From the NCBI RefSeq assembly GCF_023223645.1, contig NZ_JALKBY010000003.1, positions 62,001-126,000 on the forward strand: a stretch of DNA of 64,000 nucleotides, written 5' to 3'. Position 1 is the stretch's first letter. The number at the start of each line of letters is the position of its first letter. The stretch is from Natroniella sulfidigena. Lineage in GTDB: Bacteria; Bacillota; Halanaerobiia; Halobacteroidales; Halobacteroidaceae. Below are positions 406 through 59,333 of the stretch, piece after piece. Both the position numbers and the translations under genes were made by a program. The notes beneath the pieces are model-generated. The model was given only the letters and a program-made list of their open reading frames with translations, was not told the DNA's origin and made no database searches.

Positions 406-444
406 GATTTTTTCTATCAACTATCAACCGTCAACCGTCAACTA
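406..444 (-). repeat. Class A heptamer array overlapping a stop codon
   Basis: On the minus strand there are units TAGTTGA, CGGTTGA twice, TAGTTGA and a degenerate TAGAAAA, then AATC. The TAG of the first unit is the stop codon of the dehydratase gene (442-444). The stretch GTGATRAAAAAATC...TAGATTTTTTCTATC next to it recurs near 24946-24985. Confidence 0.8.
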
Positions 445-2322
445 TTCTTTTCCCGCTGCTATCTCATCCTTCGCCTGAGAGATCTCTTCAATATTATCCC
501 GGTTCGGCTTATAAGTCCCTACTAGCTCTACTAAACATCTAATAATTGCTGGCGAGCTATTTAAATTAATCAATCGCTCTAGCTTATCAATACTCTGATA
601 TAAAAACTCCCGCTCGATTGCTTCTAACTTTGCAATATAGATCCTCTCATGTTCCGTCGCTAGATTATCCTCTTTCTCGGTCAATAGCTCCTCGTACATC
701 TTCTCACCTGGTCGCAAGCCCGTAATCTCAATCTCGATATCCTCTCCAACTATCAAACCAGAAAGTTCAATCAAATCCTTTGCTAAGTCAATGATCTTGA
801 CTGGCTCTTCCATATCGAGAATAAAGACCTCTCCACCATCTCCTAATGCCCCTGCCTGAATTACCAATTGAGCTGCTTCAGGAATCGTCATAAAGTACCG
901 TTCTATCTTTTCATGGGTTACAGTTATTGGCCCGCCATTTTTGATCTGCTTTTTAAAAAGTGGAATCACACTACCATGACTACCTAAGACATTACCGAAT
1001 CTAACTGCCATGAACTTGGTAGCACTCTCTTCATTGATCGCTTGAACTACCATCTCTGCAGTCCGTTTGGTAGCCCCCATCACATTGGTCGGATTGACTG
1101 CTTTATCGGTCGAGATCAAGACAAAGCGTTCTACATTGAATTGATCGGCTACTTCAGCGACCTTCTTAGTTCCCAAGATATTATTCTTGACTGCTTCTTC
1201 AGGGTTGGCCTCCATCAGTGGAACGTGCTTGTGGGCTGCTGCATGGAAGACGACATCTGGTTGATAGCGAGCAAAGATGGTCTGAAGCTTGTCTCGGTCA
1301 CGAATACTGGCAATCAAAGGAATGATATTTAAATCATCATACTTCTCCCTCAATTCCAATTCTAAAAAGTAAGTATTATTCTCATAGATATCGAGAATCA
1401 ATAACTGCTCAGGAGCAAAGCGAGCTATCTGACGACAAAGCTCAGAACCGATCGAGCCACCTCCACCGGTGACTAAGACGGTCTTACCTTCTACATAAGA
1501 ACAGATCTCATCAAGATTGAGATCGACCTGCTCTCGTCCTAATAAGTCCTCAACTCTGACCTCACGAATCTGACTCAAGCTGACATTTTCAGTCAAGATC
1601 TCATCTAAGGCAGGTAGGATATTGACCTTGACCCCCTCTTGATTGCTTAAGTCATAGATCTCTTTGATTGCATCACCTCGGACAGATGGAATTGCAATGA
1701 TCACTTCTTGAACATTATACTTTTCGATCACCTCTGGAATAACATAGCGGTCTCCTAAGACCTTGCGTTCATGAATCTCTAAGCCTTGTTTGTAAGGAGC
1801 ATCATCGATCAAGCCGATGATCTCTTTGTTGATTGGATACTTATCGACTTCTCTGATCAATGCTTCGGCAGCATCACCTGCTCCAACGAGCAAGATATTG
1901 GTATTATTCTGATCAGAGCTGATATAATCTATGTAGTAGTCCTTGATGATCCGAAATGTAAAGCGAATTCCTCCTAGAAAGCCGACCTGTAAGAAGCCAT
2001 TAATAATGATGACACTCCGAGAAAACTCCAGCCCTCTAAAGAAGAGTGCTGTGGAAAAGAGGAGATTGATCAGTACTGAAGCTTTGATGATACATTTTAG
2101 CTCTGAGATACTGACATATCTCCAGATCTTGTTGTAAACTTTTAAGAAAAAAAGAACAGCAATCCCAATCGCTGATATAAGTCCTAAGTATGTATAGTCA
2201 AAATATGTTGTCCAATCACTATCAAAGCGTAAGATAAAGCTAGCTATGAGTGCTAAGTTGATCAAGGATAAGTCGGTTAGGATTAGAATTGGTTTTTTGT
2301 AGGTTCTAAGGAAATTTTTCAT
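442..2322 (-). CDS. Membrane-bound nucleotide-sugar 4,6-dehydratase (PglF/WbpM/CapD family)
   Basis: This 626-residue protein has about four N-terminal membrane segments, a first Rossmann-like motif near residue 145 (LLVGAGDAAEAL) and a cytoplasmic short-chain dehydrogenase domain with TGGGGSIGSE near 285. The active-site stretch STDKAVNPTNVMGATKR carries Met where soluble FlaA1/PseB enzymes have Tyr, which is the PglF/WbpM pattern. Known family members convert UDP-GlcNAc to the UDP-4-keto-6-deoxy sugar. The start is fixed by GGAGGTGATAATCTA before the ATG. It probably feeds the aminotransferase at 5017 and was once its near neighbour, before insertions separated them. The stop codon lies in a heptamer array. 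Confidence 0.9.
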   Translation of the reverse strand: MKNFLRTYKKPILILTDLSLINLALIASFILRFDSDWTTYFDYTYLGLISAIGIAVLFFLKVYNKIWRYVSISELKCIIKASVLINLLFSTALFFRGLEFSRSVIIINGFLQVGFLGGIRFTFRIIKDYYIDYISSDQNNTNILLVGAGDAAEALIREVDKYPINKEIIGLIDDAPYKQGLEIHERKVLGDRYVIPEVIEKYNVQEVIIAIPSVRGDAIKEIYDLSNQEGVKVNILPALDEILTENVSLSQIREVRVEDLLGREQVDLNLDEICSYVEGKTVLVTGGGGSIGSELCRQIARFAPEQLLILDIYENNTYFLELELREKYDDLNIIPLIASIRDRDKLQTIFARYQPDVVFHAAAHKHVPLMEANPEEAVKNNILGTKKVAEVADQFNVERFVLISTDKAVNPTNVMGATKRTAEMVVQAINEESATKFMAVRFGNVLGSHGSVIPLFKKQIKNGGPITVTHEKIERYFMTIPEAAQLVIQAGALGDGGEVFILDMEEPVKIIDLAKDLIELSGLIVGEDIEIEITGLRPGEKMYEELLTEKEDNLATEHERIYIAKLEAIEREFLYQSIDKLERLINLNSSPAIIRCLVELVGTYKPNRDNIEEISQAKDEIAAGKE

Positions 2323-2378: not shown

Positions 2379-2864
2379 GCCACAGATTATCACCGATTTA
2401 ACACGGATTAAATCAAAATCATTAATCAAATTAACAACTATAATAAATAATATATTATTTTCAGTCATTACATCTTACTATTATAATTCTTTCTTTTTAC
2501 TATATCTATACTACTCACTAATTAATGAAAATTAAACATTACTTCAACTAGATAAAAGACTTCTTCAACACTTCTTAAATCAAAAGTATTAATTGGATTA
2601 ACAATTAATTAATAATCAATCTGAAATCCCTCTTCATTAAATTAAATTCTGTCTAATACTCTAGTTTTCCTTCTAAAAATTAAATTTTGGATAATAAGAC
2701 TACATAAATACAATCAACGCTTTACTATTTTTTATGCTTTAATCCATGTTATTATTTAGTTTCCAGTTTATTAAGAAGCAATTTTAATCAACTAGATTAT
2801 ATATCACAATAATTTATTTTTAATCGAATGATTTTATCTGTGCCTATCTGTGTATATCCGTGGC
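2379..2864. repeat. Inverted-repeat element, copy 1 (decamer-word ends)
   Basis: A 486-bp AT-rich stretch is bounded by about 35-bp imperfect inverted repeats that begin GCCACRGAT and are built from decamer words (variants of RCACRGATWN). Its right half resembles the whole of the copy at 3345-3658, for example in shared CTAATACTC and AGCAATTT blocks. It ends 8 bases from the stop of the GxxExxY gene. No open frame of note lies inside. Confidence 0.75.
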
Positions 2865-2872
2865 CACTTGTT

Positions 2873-3244
2873 TTATAATATAAATCTTTCGTACTCCAAT
2901 TTCTCTTCAGCAAAGTTAAGGATTATTCCTACTCTCACATTAGTTGCCTTTAAGTAATTTAAGATCTGGCTTTTATGAGCATTACTTATCTGCTTTACAG
3001 ATTTTAATTCTAAGATAACTTTATCTTCAACAATTATATCTGCTATGTAATTACCTACTGTTTTTCCTTTAAATTCCACTTCTATCGAATGCTGTTGTTC
3101 AGCTTTTAAGTCATTCTCTTCAAGTAAGAGCATTAGTGCATTTTCATACACCTTTTCTAAAAATCCATAACCTAGCTCGTTATATACTTCCATAGCTAAT
3201 CCGATGATTTTATATGTTAGATCTGAGTATAGTAGTTGGCCCAT
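2873..3244 (-). CDS. GxxExxY family protein
   Basis: The 123-residue product contains the signature GYGFLEKVYENAL and the core IADIIVEDKVILELKSVKQI, which resembles a PD-(D/E)XK-like fold with D, E and K in order. The family is widespread in environmental bacteria and its function is unknown. The start at 3244 is chosen because AGGAGGGG stands just before that ATG; an upstream in-frame extension to 3349 reads through repeat DNA and lacks a binding site. The gene sits between two related inverted-repeat elements, which suggests it moved in as a unit. Confidence 0.85.
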   Translation of the reverse strand: MGQLLYSDLTYKIIGLAMEVYNELGYGFLEKVYENALMLLLEENDLKAEQQHSIEVEFKGKTVGNYIADIIVEDKVILELKSVKQISNAHKSQILNYLKATNVRVGIILNFAEEKLEYERFIL

Positions 3245-3344
3245 CTTACCCCTCCTAATATAACTTGTTTTACCAATGAATTGTATTTTTATGAGGGGCT
3301 TTTTAAAAACTTTTTTGCAACGAATTAAATCAAAATCATTTTCA

Positions 3345-3658
3345 GCCACAGATTAACACCGATTGGACACTGATTAAGTTCAAAAGCATTAATTAAATTA
3401 CTCAAATAAAAAATTAACTTGAAATTACTGTTCCTTAAATTAAATTCTATCTAATACTCCAATTCTACTTTTCCAGTTTTCCAGCTTAAATTATAAGTAA
3501 TAAATATACACATTTAATTTAATTTGATCTAATCTATTTTACATTCAATTTATAGTTTACCGAAAGCAATTTAAGTCAATTAGATCAGATACTATAATTT
3601 ATAAATAGTTATTTTAATTTAAAGATTTTATCTGTGCTCATCCGTGTCCATCCGTGGC
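3345..3658. repeat. Inverted-repeat element, copy 2 (decamer-word ends)
   Basis: This 314-bp element has the same style of ends as 2379-2864: GCCACAGAT at the left and, on the minus strand, GCCACGGATGGACACGGAT at the right. Internal blocks match copy 1 in the same order. Its right end is about 10 bp beyond the ancestral aminotransferase stop codon at 3668-3670. Confidence 0.75.
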
Positions 3659-3763: not shown

Positions 3764-4699
3764 TTATGCTATCACTTTAACACCATCGATTAAGTCATTA
3801 ACCAATTGCTTTTGATAATAAGCTGGTGGAACACTTGCTATACTTGAATGTGGACGATTATGGTTGTATTCATTAATAAATTCTTTTATAGAACCTTTAC
3901 AATGTAAAATATTATGATAGTGCTTTTGATAGACTTCTTCTCGTTTTAAGGTACCATGAAAGCTTTCAATATGAGAGTTTTCCTCAGGGGTATTAACAGC
4001 AATTCTTTCATGATCAATACCTAGCTCTGTAATGTATTTTTGAAATTCTCTACTCCTAAACTGGGTACCATTATCAGTTCTTAAAGTTAAGTTAACAATA
4101 TCGCGTGAATTTACTGCTTCTTTTAAAGCTTTAAGTGCTTCCTTAGTACGACATCTAAGACTTACATGATGACCTACTATTTCTCTAGTATAAACATCGA
4201 TAATGTCAAACATATAAACCCAGCGTCCACTCTCATCTATATACATCTGAACCATATCCATCTCCCATAATTGGTTTGGTCCAGTTAATTCATGCTTTTG
4301 CTTTAATCTATAATTATTTGGTTTAGGAGTAATTCTATCTTGCAGCAAATCAAGAACATCCATTATGCGATAAATACGCTTATAGTTAACCTTTAGACCC
4401 TCGCTAAACCTTAAGCGATCTGTTATCATTCTGTATCCTGCAAAAGAATATTTATCACAGTATTCTTTTACAAGTTCAACAACTTCTTTTTCAGGTACTT
4501 TATTACCATCTTTATCATAAGCTGGATAGCCTGAATAAAGTGATTTATTTCGAAACCTTTTATCTTCAATTTTATTATTTTGTCTGTAATAATAAGTGCT
4601 CCTAGATAAATTAAAAGTCTTACAAAGTTCTGTGATTTTATATTCACTTTTTAAGTAATTAACGAGCTTTATTTTATCTGTAATATTTAATCCTGCCAA
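3764..4699 (-). CDS. IS3-family transposase OrfB (DDE integrase domain)
   Basis: The 311-residue frame carries an HTH_21-like region followed by an rve integrase core. The DDE residues are visible in WEMDMVQMY, LRTDNGTQF and PEENSHIESFHG. It begins in the -1 frame relative to OrfA, with a TTG at 4699 as the nominal start. The likely mode of expression is a programmed -1 frameshift that makes an OrfAB fusion, the active transposase in this family. Confidence 0.93.
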   Translation of the reverse strand: MAGLNITDKIKLVNYLKSEYKITELCKTFNLSRSTYYYRQNNKIEDKRFRNKSLYSGYPAYDKDGNKVPEKEVVELVKEYCDKYSFAGYRMITDRLRFSEGLKVNYKRIYRIMDVLDLLQDRITPKPNNYRLKQKHELTGPNQLWEMDMVQMYIDESGRWVYMFDIIDVYTREIVGHHVSLRCRTKEALKALKEAVNSRDIVNLTLRTDNGTQFRSREFQKYITELGIDHERIAVNTPEENSHIESFHGTLKREEVYQKHYHNILHCKGSIKEFINEYNHNRPHSSIASVPPAYYQKQLVNDLIDGVKVIA

Positions 4700-4986
4700 G
4701 GCTTTTTTTTGAGAATTTCTAGTTGAACTTTTTGTTCACCAATAATCTTTTTCATCTCATCAATTTGTTGCTCTTTTTCTTGGAGTTCAACATCTTTTTG
4801 AGATTCAATTTGCTTTTTATTACCAAGGTTTTTAAGTCCACCATCAAGAAATTGATTTTTCCAAGCATAAATTGAATTACGACTTACACCATATTTTTCA
4901 GCAACATCAGAAGGTTTATTACCTTTTAGCACTTCAAGTACTACTTCCATTTTGAATTCATTATCATAAGTAGAACCTTTAGGCAT
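4687..4986 (-). CDS. IS3-family OrfA (helix-turn-helix DNA-binding protein)
   Basis: This 99-residue protein has an N-terminal helix-turn-helix (DVAEKYGVSRNSIYAWKNQF) and a leucine-zipper-like C-terminal coiled coil, as in IS3 OrfA proteins. GGGGGAGATAATT precedes the ATG. Its last codons contain a run of eight A followed by G (minus strand, 4710-4702), the A-AAA-AAG type of slippery site, just upstream of the OrfB frame. Confidence 0.92.
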   Translation of the reverse strand: MPKGSTYDNEFKMEVVLEVLKGNKPSDVAEKYGVSRNSIYAWKNQFLDGGLKNLGNKKQIESQKDVELQEKEQQIDEMKKIIGEQKVQLEILKKKPWQD

Positions 4987-5016: not shown

Positions 5017-6153
5017 TTAACTAACTTCTTGTCCAAAAGCTCTAGGGGGCGTAACAGCTTCTTTAAGAACTTGAACTACCGTCTCAATCTCTTCCTTAGT
5101 TAAATCATTATAAAAAGGTAGAGCAATTGTCGAATCAGTTACCTGCTCTGTAATCGGATAATCTCCACGTTGGTAATCAAATTGTTCTTTATAAAAAGGC
5201 TGTAAATGAATCGGTGTGAAATAAGGCTTACAGCTGACTCCATTGTCCCTTAGATAATTCATCACACTATCACGATCAATCTTCTCTGCTACTTGGATAA
5301 CATAAACAAACCAGCTCATCTTGGTTGTACTCTCTTCAATAGTCAAGGTCTTGACTTCATCAACATCTGCTAATAAACGATTGTACTCCTCAGCAACCTC
5401 TGCTCGCTTAGCTAAGATCTCTTCAATCCGTTCTAACTGAGCAATCCCAACGGCAGCACTCATCTCATCTAGACGATAATTATAACCTAACCTAACATGG
5501 TCAAGCCATAGGTCACTCTGTCCACGACCTTGATTTCTCATACTCCGACATAACTTCGCTACTTCATCATTATCAGTGATAATCATCCCACCTTCGCCGG
5601 TCGTCATCTGCTTGTTAGGATAAAAAGCAAAGACGCTGGCATCGGCAAAGGTTCCTACCTTTCGGCCTTTATGCTCTGCTCCGATTGCTTCACAAGAATC
5701 CTCGATCACTTTCAAATCATACTCTTCAGCAATCTTCATAATCTCAGTCATATTAGCAGGTTGTCCGAAGACATCGACTGGTAAGATTGCTTTTGTCTTA
5801 TCAGTAATTGCATCTTTTATCTTAGCTGGATCGATACATAAAGTTTCTGGATCTATATCTACAAAAACAGGTTTAGCTTTTTCAAAAAGAATACAGTTAC
5901 TGGAAGCAATAAAACTGAAAGGAGTAGTAATTACTTCATCCCCTTCTTCAATTCCTAATGCTCTAATCAATAAATGTAAGCCACTTGTCCCACTATTGAC
6001 TGCGATAGCGTGTTTTGTTCCTATGTACTCTGCAAAATCTGCTTCAAAACGGTCTATCATCTTACCCATACTTAGCCAACCTGAGTCTAAGACCTCGTTG
6101 ACTAAATCTTTTTCTCGTTGGCCGATATCTGGCCCGGATAATGAAATTGACAT
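5017..6153 (-). CDS. DegT/DnrJ/EryC1-type sugar aminotransferase, 3' end replaced by IS sequence
   Basis: This is a PLP enzyme of 378 residues; the Schiff-base lysine is visible in FAFYPNKQMTTGEGGMI, and the NSGTSGLH and EDSCEAIGA motifs are present. In this context it would aminate the 4-keto sugar made by the dehydratase at 442, like PglE. The final residues VTPPRAFGQEVS and the stop are encoded by the inverted repeat of the IS3 element, which entered inside an Ala codon. Excising the IS gives the native end KEALAK and a TAA at 3668-3670. The core fold is intact, so the enzyme is probably still active. An AGGAGAG site supports the start. Confidence 0.93.
   Translation of the reverse strand: MSISLSGPDIGQREKDLVNEVLDSGWLSMGKMIDRFEADFAEYIGTKHAIAVNSGTSGLHLLIRALGIEEGDEVITTPFSFIASSNCILFEKAKPVFVDIDPETLCIDPAKIKDAITDKTKAILPVDVFGQPANMTEIMKIAEEYDLKVIEDSCEAIGAEHKGRKVGTFADASVFAFYPNKQMTTGEGGMIITDNDEVAKLCRSMRNQGRGQSDLWLDHVRLGYNYRLDEMSAAVGIAQLERIEEILAKRAEVAEEYNRLLADVDEVKTLTIEESTTKMSWFVYVIQVAEKIDRDSVMNYLRDNGVSCKPYFTPIHLQPFYKEQFDYQRGDYPITEQVTDSTIALPFYNDLTKEEIETVVQVLKEAVTPPRAFGQEVS
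5057..5060. repeat. Target-site duplication GCTT (right copy)
   Basis: This is the second copy of the GCTT duplication flanking the IS3 element. It lies inside the aminotransferase coding frame. Confidence 0.85.
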
Positions 6154-58187: not shown

Positions 58188-59333
58188 TCACCTTTCAACC
58201 TTTAATTCTATATTATCGACCAATTGGTCACTGCGCCAAATATCTTCAGTAGCAGTCAACTTAATTCTTTCTACATCTTCTGTCAATAATTCTTCTAAGA
58301 CTGGATAAAGATGAATCAGACTAAGACTTCCGATTTCTCCTTTATCATTAGGTAAGACTCCATCACGAACTACTTTTTGATTTAACTCGACTAAGAATTG
58401 GTTCAACTCTGCTTCCAAATCAGTCAGATCATCAACTTGGGCCAACTGATAATCAAAGATAAGCTGCTCAGTTTCATAAACTTGATAATCCTGATACAAC
58501 TCAAATTCCAGTAATAGATCTTCATCCTTGAATGTATTTTGAGCAGCTACCAAACGAACAACATTCCTACCTTCTCGTTCAGTTAACAGCTCGACTACCT
58601 CTTCAAAGTCATGCTGCTTATATTTAACATTTTCCAAGTTTGGCCCTTCTTCTAATGATCCCTTAGCAGTTTCAAGAGCAGCAAGTAGGTCTTTTTCAAT
58701 CTCTGTCTCTTTTAGATCAACCTCAAGTGAGCTATCCAAGATCACTTCACCCTTCTGGTAAGCAATATCTCCAGTTAAAGAATGAAGGTATTTTTGCCCA
58801 AAGAGGCTTAGATTATGGGCCAAATTATCGACCTGCTGGGTCAGATCTTCCCGTTGGACAGCAAGCTGATCGACTTTAGTCCCTAGCTCCTCCTTACTTG
58901 CTCTAACTTGTTGATACTCTTCTTTAGTTGAACTCAACTGCTCTTCTAACTCCAACTTATCATCCTCTAGAAGAGCTTTATCCTCTTCTAAAGTCAAAAG
59001 ATCATCGATCTTAACCCCGATTTCAGCTTGCAGTTCGGCTAACTCATCATCCTTAGTAGTCACCTGCTGATCAAGTAGATCGATTCGCTCCACTAGCTGT
59101 TGCATATCAAATAAAGCCAACCGTACATTTTCTGAGGCAACCAATAGTAGAACCAAAGAACTGACTGTGATCAGTACTCCAGTCAAAATTGTAATAATGA
59201 TTGACGTATGCTTAGGTCTTAGACCTAGCAGGGATAATCGCTTCTTACCAACCTTCATCCCAATCTTATCACCAACATAAGCTATCGCCCCACCCATGAT
59301 TACTAGGACTATGACTAATCTGATTCCATACAT
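58188..59333 (-). CDS. DUF3084 family membrane protein
   Basis: The 381-residue protein has two N-terminal membrane segments (IRLVIVLVIMGGAIAYVGDKIG and IIITILTGVLITVSSLVLLLVA) separated by the conserved KKRLSLLGLRPKHTS, a long coiled coil (residues about 80-165) and a C-terminal domain. The family occurs in Cyanobacteria and diderm Firmicutes and its function is unknown. GGGGG precedes the ATG. Location beside Lpt genes hints at an envelope role. Confidence 0.88.
   Translation of the reverse strand: MYGIRLVIVLVIMGGAIAYVGDKIGMKVGKKRLSLLGLRPKHTSIIITILTGVLITVSSLVLLLVASENVRLALFDMQQLVERIDLLDQQVTTKDDELAELQAEIGVKIDDLLTLEEDKALLEDDKLELEEQLSSTKEEYQQVRASKEELGTKVDQLAVQREDLTQQVDNLAHNLSLFGQKYLHSLTGDIAYQKGEVILDSSLEVDLKETEIEKDLLAALETAKGSLEEGPNLENVKYKQHDFEEVVELLTEREGRNVVRLVAAQNTFKDEDLLLEFELYQDYQVYETEQLIFDYQLAQVDDLTDLEAELNQFLVELNQKVVRDGVLPNDKGEIGSLSLIHLYPVLEELLTEDVERIKLTATEDIWRSDQLVDNIELKVER

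Follow-up and report, generated by a model that had tools for sequence, protein, structure and literature searches.

Comparative analysis suggests that a GxxExxY gene and the arrays of short, regularly spaced DNA words on its two sides probably form a minimal selfish mobile unit, which has MITE-like derivatives and whose sole protein is a nuclease. GxxExxY is a widespread family of small proteins whose function is not known, and a defined DNA target would give this family a testable function. The link might also account for a large class of dispersed repeats with a period of about 10 nt. Mentions of GxxExxY found in the literature were incidental, and searches with PF13366, the word strings and repeat-nuclease terms found no description of its association with repeats, subscription papers and most preprints being outside these searches.

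Results

Two gene-less elements with inverted ends built of decamer words lie on either side of a single GxxExxY gene in the window (the whole stretch of 64,000 nucleotides that was analysed). Element 1 (2379–2864, 486 bp, no strand assigned) begins with a left word array (GCCACAGATTATCACCGATTTAACACGGAT, 2379–2408, plus strand) and ends with an inverted right array (ATCTGTGCCTATCTGTGTATATCCGTGGC, 2836–2864, plus strand). Element 2 (3345–3658, 314 bp, no strand assigned) has its left array (GCCACAGATTAACACCGATTGGACACTGAT) at 3345–3374 and its inverted right array (ATCTGTGCTCATCCGTGTCCATCCGTGGC) at 3630–3658, both on the plus strand. Both elements open with GCCACAGATT and close with CCGTGGC. The positions and the terminal words of 10-nt period given by an earlier, sequence-only reading of this DNA proved exact, with words in arrays at both ends of both copies, and its view that the copies are related is borne out by 245 identities, with 59 mismatches plus gaps, when the elements are aligned in direct orientation. 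Matches to ATCYGTGNNNATCYGTG with at most 2 mismatches occur 7 times in the window, compared with 0.62 expected, and none of 100 shuffles reached 7. The exact double word is found 4 times in the 2.6-Mb genome, each time at element 1 or 2, and its reversed control pattern has no occurrence genome-wide.

The GxxExxY gene itself (2873–3244, minus strand, 123 aa) is the genome's one match above the family cut-off. Its end is 8 bp from element 1 and its start 100 bp from element 2, in agreement with the distances first proposed. The host genes at the flanks code for a polysaccharide nucleoside-sugar dehydratase (442–2322, minus strand) and a DegT/DnrJ-type aminotransferase (5017–6153, minus strand). 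These two had been described as split by the elements, which do lie in the gap between them; however, an IS3-family insertion sequence with two ORFs (3764–4986, minus strand) shares this gap outside the GxxExxY unit, which is hence not the sole splitter. Two ORFs of about 550 aa that lie on this contig upstream of the window (G000:C23:51960-52154 and 58706-58900) show a weak match to the second half of the GxxExxY profile (E 7e-5 and 6e-4), and ORFs of this kind are present in many relatives too.

The usual unit is about 420–570 bp long and consists of an array, the gene and an inverted array, with GxxExxY as the sole gene inside typical units. The gene between two complete gene-less elements, as laid out in the window, is a compound variant of this form. 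Each array usually holds two or three words at 9–10-nt spacing (for example CCACGAATTAACACGAATGGACACGAAT), with the consensus CRCNRATNNN on the left and its inverse on the right, and the outer word is preceded by TTAGC, TTAAC or AATRGAA. Small palindromes nested in word arrays were also seen, namely CCCTGTTAGATAGTAAACATCTAACAGGG in G247 (L298, L302, L310) and an insert beginning with AGCCCAAGACTACTT in G005 (L009).

The GxxExxY protein of the window matches TIGR04256 with 142.7 bits (cut-off 35) over profile positions 1–116 of 116, and PF13366, its sole Pfam match in hmmscan, with 139.4 bits (cut-off 22). A search by sequence gave no convincing solved structure. The AlphaFold2 model has a pLDDT of 95.7, and the nearest solved fold is that of Cas4 SSO0001 (Z 9.6, 3.3 A over 98 residues); next come nucleases of the restriction, RecB/AddB and Holliday-resolvase types. 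In 79 sequences, G27, E30, Y33, G64, D69, K81 and Y97 (window numbering) are invariant or nearly so; the first three form the motif that gives the family its name, D69, K81 and Y97 are invariant, and E79 and Q93 are conserved in at least 90%. Both the fold and the D, ExK and QxxxY motifs are those of the Cas4/RecB branch of the PD-(D/E)XK nucleases. From this fold and the conserved catalytic residues, GxxExxY is likely to be a catalytically competent DNA nuclease. We also considered a defence system, a reading set aside because the anti-phage models of PADLOC gave no match at a useful score, only weak and partial Cas4-like ones (best E 4e-4, 17 bits). A phage-borne gene was likewise rejected, as there was no phage match and the searches made of phage records and viral contigs found no GxxExxY relative.

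A scan of 84,980 species yielded 80 GxxExxY loci from many phyla, which are best tblastn hits and not a random sample. With a generic word pair, 55 of 79 loci had left-type arrays at most 250 bp upstream of the gene, and 51 of 77 had right-type arrays at most 250 bp downstream. The background for this pair was 2–3% per 250 bp in distant bins, and reversed control words gave 1–5. Such words had been predicted near other GxxExxY genes, a prediction to be abandoned if they were missing at other loci or equally common away from them; this test was run and the prediction held. The upstream and downstream flanks resembled each other above every same-contig control position in 30 of 64 loci (2 expected). 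Of the 75 loci with 300 bp on each side, a quarter lacked the generic pair, and many loci missed by it bear other periodic words or repeats, with 8–9-nt spacing in L008 and L236 and unrelated words in L011, L097 and L083. One pattern therefore misses about a quarter of loci, because spacing and words vary among families.

The same association was seen in relatives and at the level of whole genomes. Among 121 relatives, the window words occur in 5 of the 8 genomes with GxxExxY over the cut-off, versus 6 of the 113 others. In all of the five relatives checked by eye, the gene has copies of some repeat on either side, with differing words: ATTTGTGTACATCCGTG in L009, CTCTGTGACTCTGTGG in L008 and L012, TGACTAAACC/CTTGTC in L010, and CCACGAAAACGT in L011. 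Of 198 genomes, a sample of one phylum, 33 of the 70 with the gene and 6 of the 128 without it had at least three triple-word arrays (p 1.7e-12). In Sphingomonas, GxxExxY lies between fabD and fabG (L238:2983-3411), with its left array present and its stop 2 bp from fabG; the right array seems lost, and this is possibly a fixed copy. In the Halanaerobia-like genomes G000, G003, G005, G006, G007 and G009, GxxExxY copies are close to genes matching the polysaccharide dehydratase, whose vicinity is a possible local hot spot.

Word types were placed on the GxxExxY tree, where they change 27 times, versus 42.8 times with shuffled labels (whole word; 0 of 500 shuffles). Host phylum changes 35 times on this tree (minimum 18). 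Word identity is 0.72 for similar proteins from different phyla and 0.33 for dissimilar proteins from the same phylum, and no dependence of word type on G+C content was found. Judged from these comparisons, word type tracks the protein and not host phylum or G+C. Between the two arms, words of equal rank are 0.831 identical and those of unequal rank 0.807; for spacers the values are 0.619 and 0.635 (42 arm pairs). Since equal-rank words and spacers are no more alike than unequal-rank ones, base-pairing between the arms is not the conserved feature, and regularly phased binding sites on double-stranded DNA would be the simpler reading of the arrays. Taken together, the flanking arrays, the covariation of word and protein, and the co-occurrence in genomes strongly support the earlier view that protein and repeat form one unit.

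The triple word was found in 26 of 30 gene-bearing genomes, one of which has 234 hits, and most gene-bearing genomes have short gene-less left-right pairs scattered through them, with greatly differing copy numbers. Tandem units of 95–97% identity also exist. In G247, near-identical copies with defined ends have differing flanks; no consistent target-site duplication was seen in the copies of G247 and G300. As in MITEs, there are terminal inverted repeats, no complete gene, and several dispersed copies. Internal-deletion derivatives, with GxxExxY fragments between intact ends, are present as well. L345, from a genome that also has intact copies, carries terminal repeats TATTCAGCCACAGATT and joins positions 2–26 of the GxxExxY profile in frame to 89–120, and in L163 full word arrays enclose the ~33 N-terminal residues. 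Many copies may be old and inherited. In G247 and G412 (loci L282–L311), 102 and 30 triple-word arrays were found, many of them near-identical, and no GxxExxY gene was detected; these assemblies may be incomplete, and the partner gene is either lost, unassembled or different. These elements without a detected gene, and the quarter of loci lacking the generic word pair, count against the mobile-unit reading.

Units lie between genes that are normally adjacent, such as carA/carB, bioF/bioD and gyrB/gyrA (L087, judged from its flanks), and also within the nuo operon, and in many relatives such junctions have no unit. Of the 27 carA-carB junctions resolved in one order, a unit is present in 2 and absent from 25, and three of these 25 keep an apparent right-end relic. 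Of 30 Flavobacterium bioD loci, 8 have the unit; another 7 lack the gene and have only a short gap between bioF and bioD, with just the right end left in one of them; seven others carry an unrelated gene of ~135 aa at the junction (L253, L255, L257, L258, L265, L267, L272). Several Flavobacterium species keep the unit at one site by vertical persistence, and the bioF/bioD unit could be an old insertion with losses. Orthologues of the aminotransferase and the dehydratase adjoin in two relatives (G011 and G012), and the intergenic DNA of G006 and G007 is too diverged for insertions to be called from empty sites. The mobility suggested by the sequence-only reading gains comparative support from the dispersed gene-less copies, the deleted derivatives and the unit-free junctions; the arrangement it had in mind is not the usual one, which has the gene inside one inverted array pair.

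Two further observations concern the dehydratase locus of relatives. The aminotransferase-dehydratase gap of gene-less relatives holds a different inverted periodic element with GACACAGAC / GTCTTGTGTCC words (L242:3366-3598, L243). In G010, an Rpn-type PD-(D/E)XK 'transposase' (L240:389-1294; PF12784, 232 bits) lies directly upstream of the same dehydratase, which places a second nuclease of the superfamily at a site of this kind.

Both neighbours are co-directional with the GxxExxY gene in 55 of 65 loci, versus 53% for other same-contig genes (p 8e-8). This bias and the short leader suggest that units persist at sites of read-through from host transcription.

Discussion

We propose the following course of events, in which movement and cleavage by GxxExxY are inferred from comparison. 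Several GxxExxY protomers would occupy consecutive words along one face of the double-stranded DNA, at one word for each helical turn, and the two inverted arrays would come together. The Cas4/RecB-type nuclease could then cut at or near the ends of the unit, and the break would allow the unit either to move or, by way of host repair, to be copied to a new site. The protein may also act in trans on the gene-less, MITE-like copies. The unit has hardly any space for its own promoter and would persist mainly where operon transcription reads through in the sense direction. We know of no lone PD-(D/E)XK nuclease that moves DNA by itself. The broader claim, that this autonomous mobile element belongs to an entirely new class, in which a 120-residue Cas4/RecB-type nuclease with phased decamer ends and no recombinase spreads itself and its MITE-like derivatives via host repair in many phyla, is made tentatively and with less than even confidence.

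The main rival, which we consider rather improbable, is that GxxExxY is a resident nuclease with a host job in repair, recombination or replication control. The arrays would then be its dispersed binding sites, with a role akin to that of Chi sites, and those next to the gene would regulate or protect it. Such a role suits the RecB/Cas4-type fold and the persistence at one site in several Flavobacterium species, as does the finding that GxxExxY was rare on plasmids and not found in phages or viral contigs in the searches made. However, the gene is patchy, being present in 70 of the 198 genomes of one phylum sample (in 68 of them over the cut-off), words and protein cross phyla together, and copy numbers per genome are very different. 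Moreover, a role as binding sites would not readily account for internally deleted copies that keep both ends.

A passenger role for GxxExxY is what the architecture of the window alone would suggest: an unrelated transposase would move the repeats, as a MITE family, and the gene would be cargo trapped between two of them. The many elements without a detected gene in G247 and G412 point the same way. Yet the association recurs with many different word families, the words co-vary with GxxExxY itself, and the deleted copies keep pieces of GxxExxY and not of another gene. In addition, the gene neighbours span 134 Pfam families, with no transposase family in the 25 most frequent. We therefore regard this role as unlikely, more so than that of a resident nuclease. 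Action at the RNA level, with the arrays serving in the operon transcript as a stem between cistrons or as a processing site that flanks the gene, is very improbable: the co-directional placement inside operons and the inverted arms would fit it, but the arm comparison does not support a hairpin or RNA stem, there is no Rfam match, gene-less elements also sit outside operons, and the fold is that of DNA nucleases.

Under the favoured reading, a selfish mobile unit, a lone nuclease may drive the mobility of a very small autonomous unit, and a small nuclease whose DNA words are readable and specific to the protein would be a useful tool. Among known systems, REP/REPIN sequences with their RAYT (TnpA-REP) proteins are similar in that a small nuclease gene, in single to few copies, is flanked by short inverted repeats that are dispersed gene-less in the same genome, and in that the repeat type goes with the protein. 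RAYTs, however, are HUH Y1 transposases acting on single-stranded hairpins, whereas GxxExxY is of the PD-(D/E)XK Cas4/RecB type, matched only by PF13366 and without a Y1 HUH domain, and its word arms show no selection for pairing and no conserved hairpin. With MITEs and their autonomous insertion sequences the unit shares inverted ends, gene-less dispersed copies and internally deleted derivatives; in contrast to classical insertion sequences, it has no DDE, HUH, serine or tyrosine recombinase inside its ends, which are helically phased decamer arrays.

Two nuclease families also invite comparison. Rpn / PD-(D/E)XK family transposases (PF12784, PF04754) have been linked to DNA mobilisation and, in a preprint, to phage defence (PMC5350276, PMC10327210). 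The likeness lies in a PD-(D/E)XK nuclease linked with DNA mobilisation, but Rpn proteins are longer and of another Pfam family, and GxxExxY has no PF12784 or PF04754 match (hmmscan). To our knowledge, the Rpn family has no defined repeat ends. Cas4/RecB-family exonucleases share the fold and the motif order GxxxxD..ExK..QxxxY, whereas GxxExxY is small and single-domain, without a helicase, and sits in its own repeat-bounded unit. In summary, the GxxExxY unit would work like REP/RAYT and like insertion sequences with MITEs, yet it is a member of neither, because it lacks the Y1 domain and hairpin that define the former and the recombinase that defines the latter. Judged from its sequence, it seems to be a minimal mobile element of a kind not described before, which settles between operon genes.
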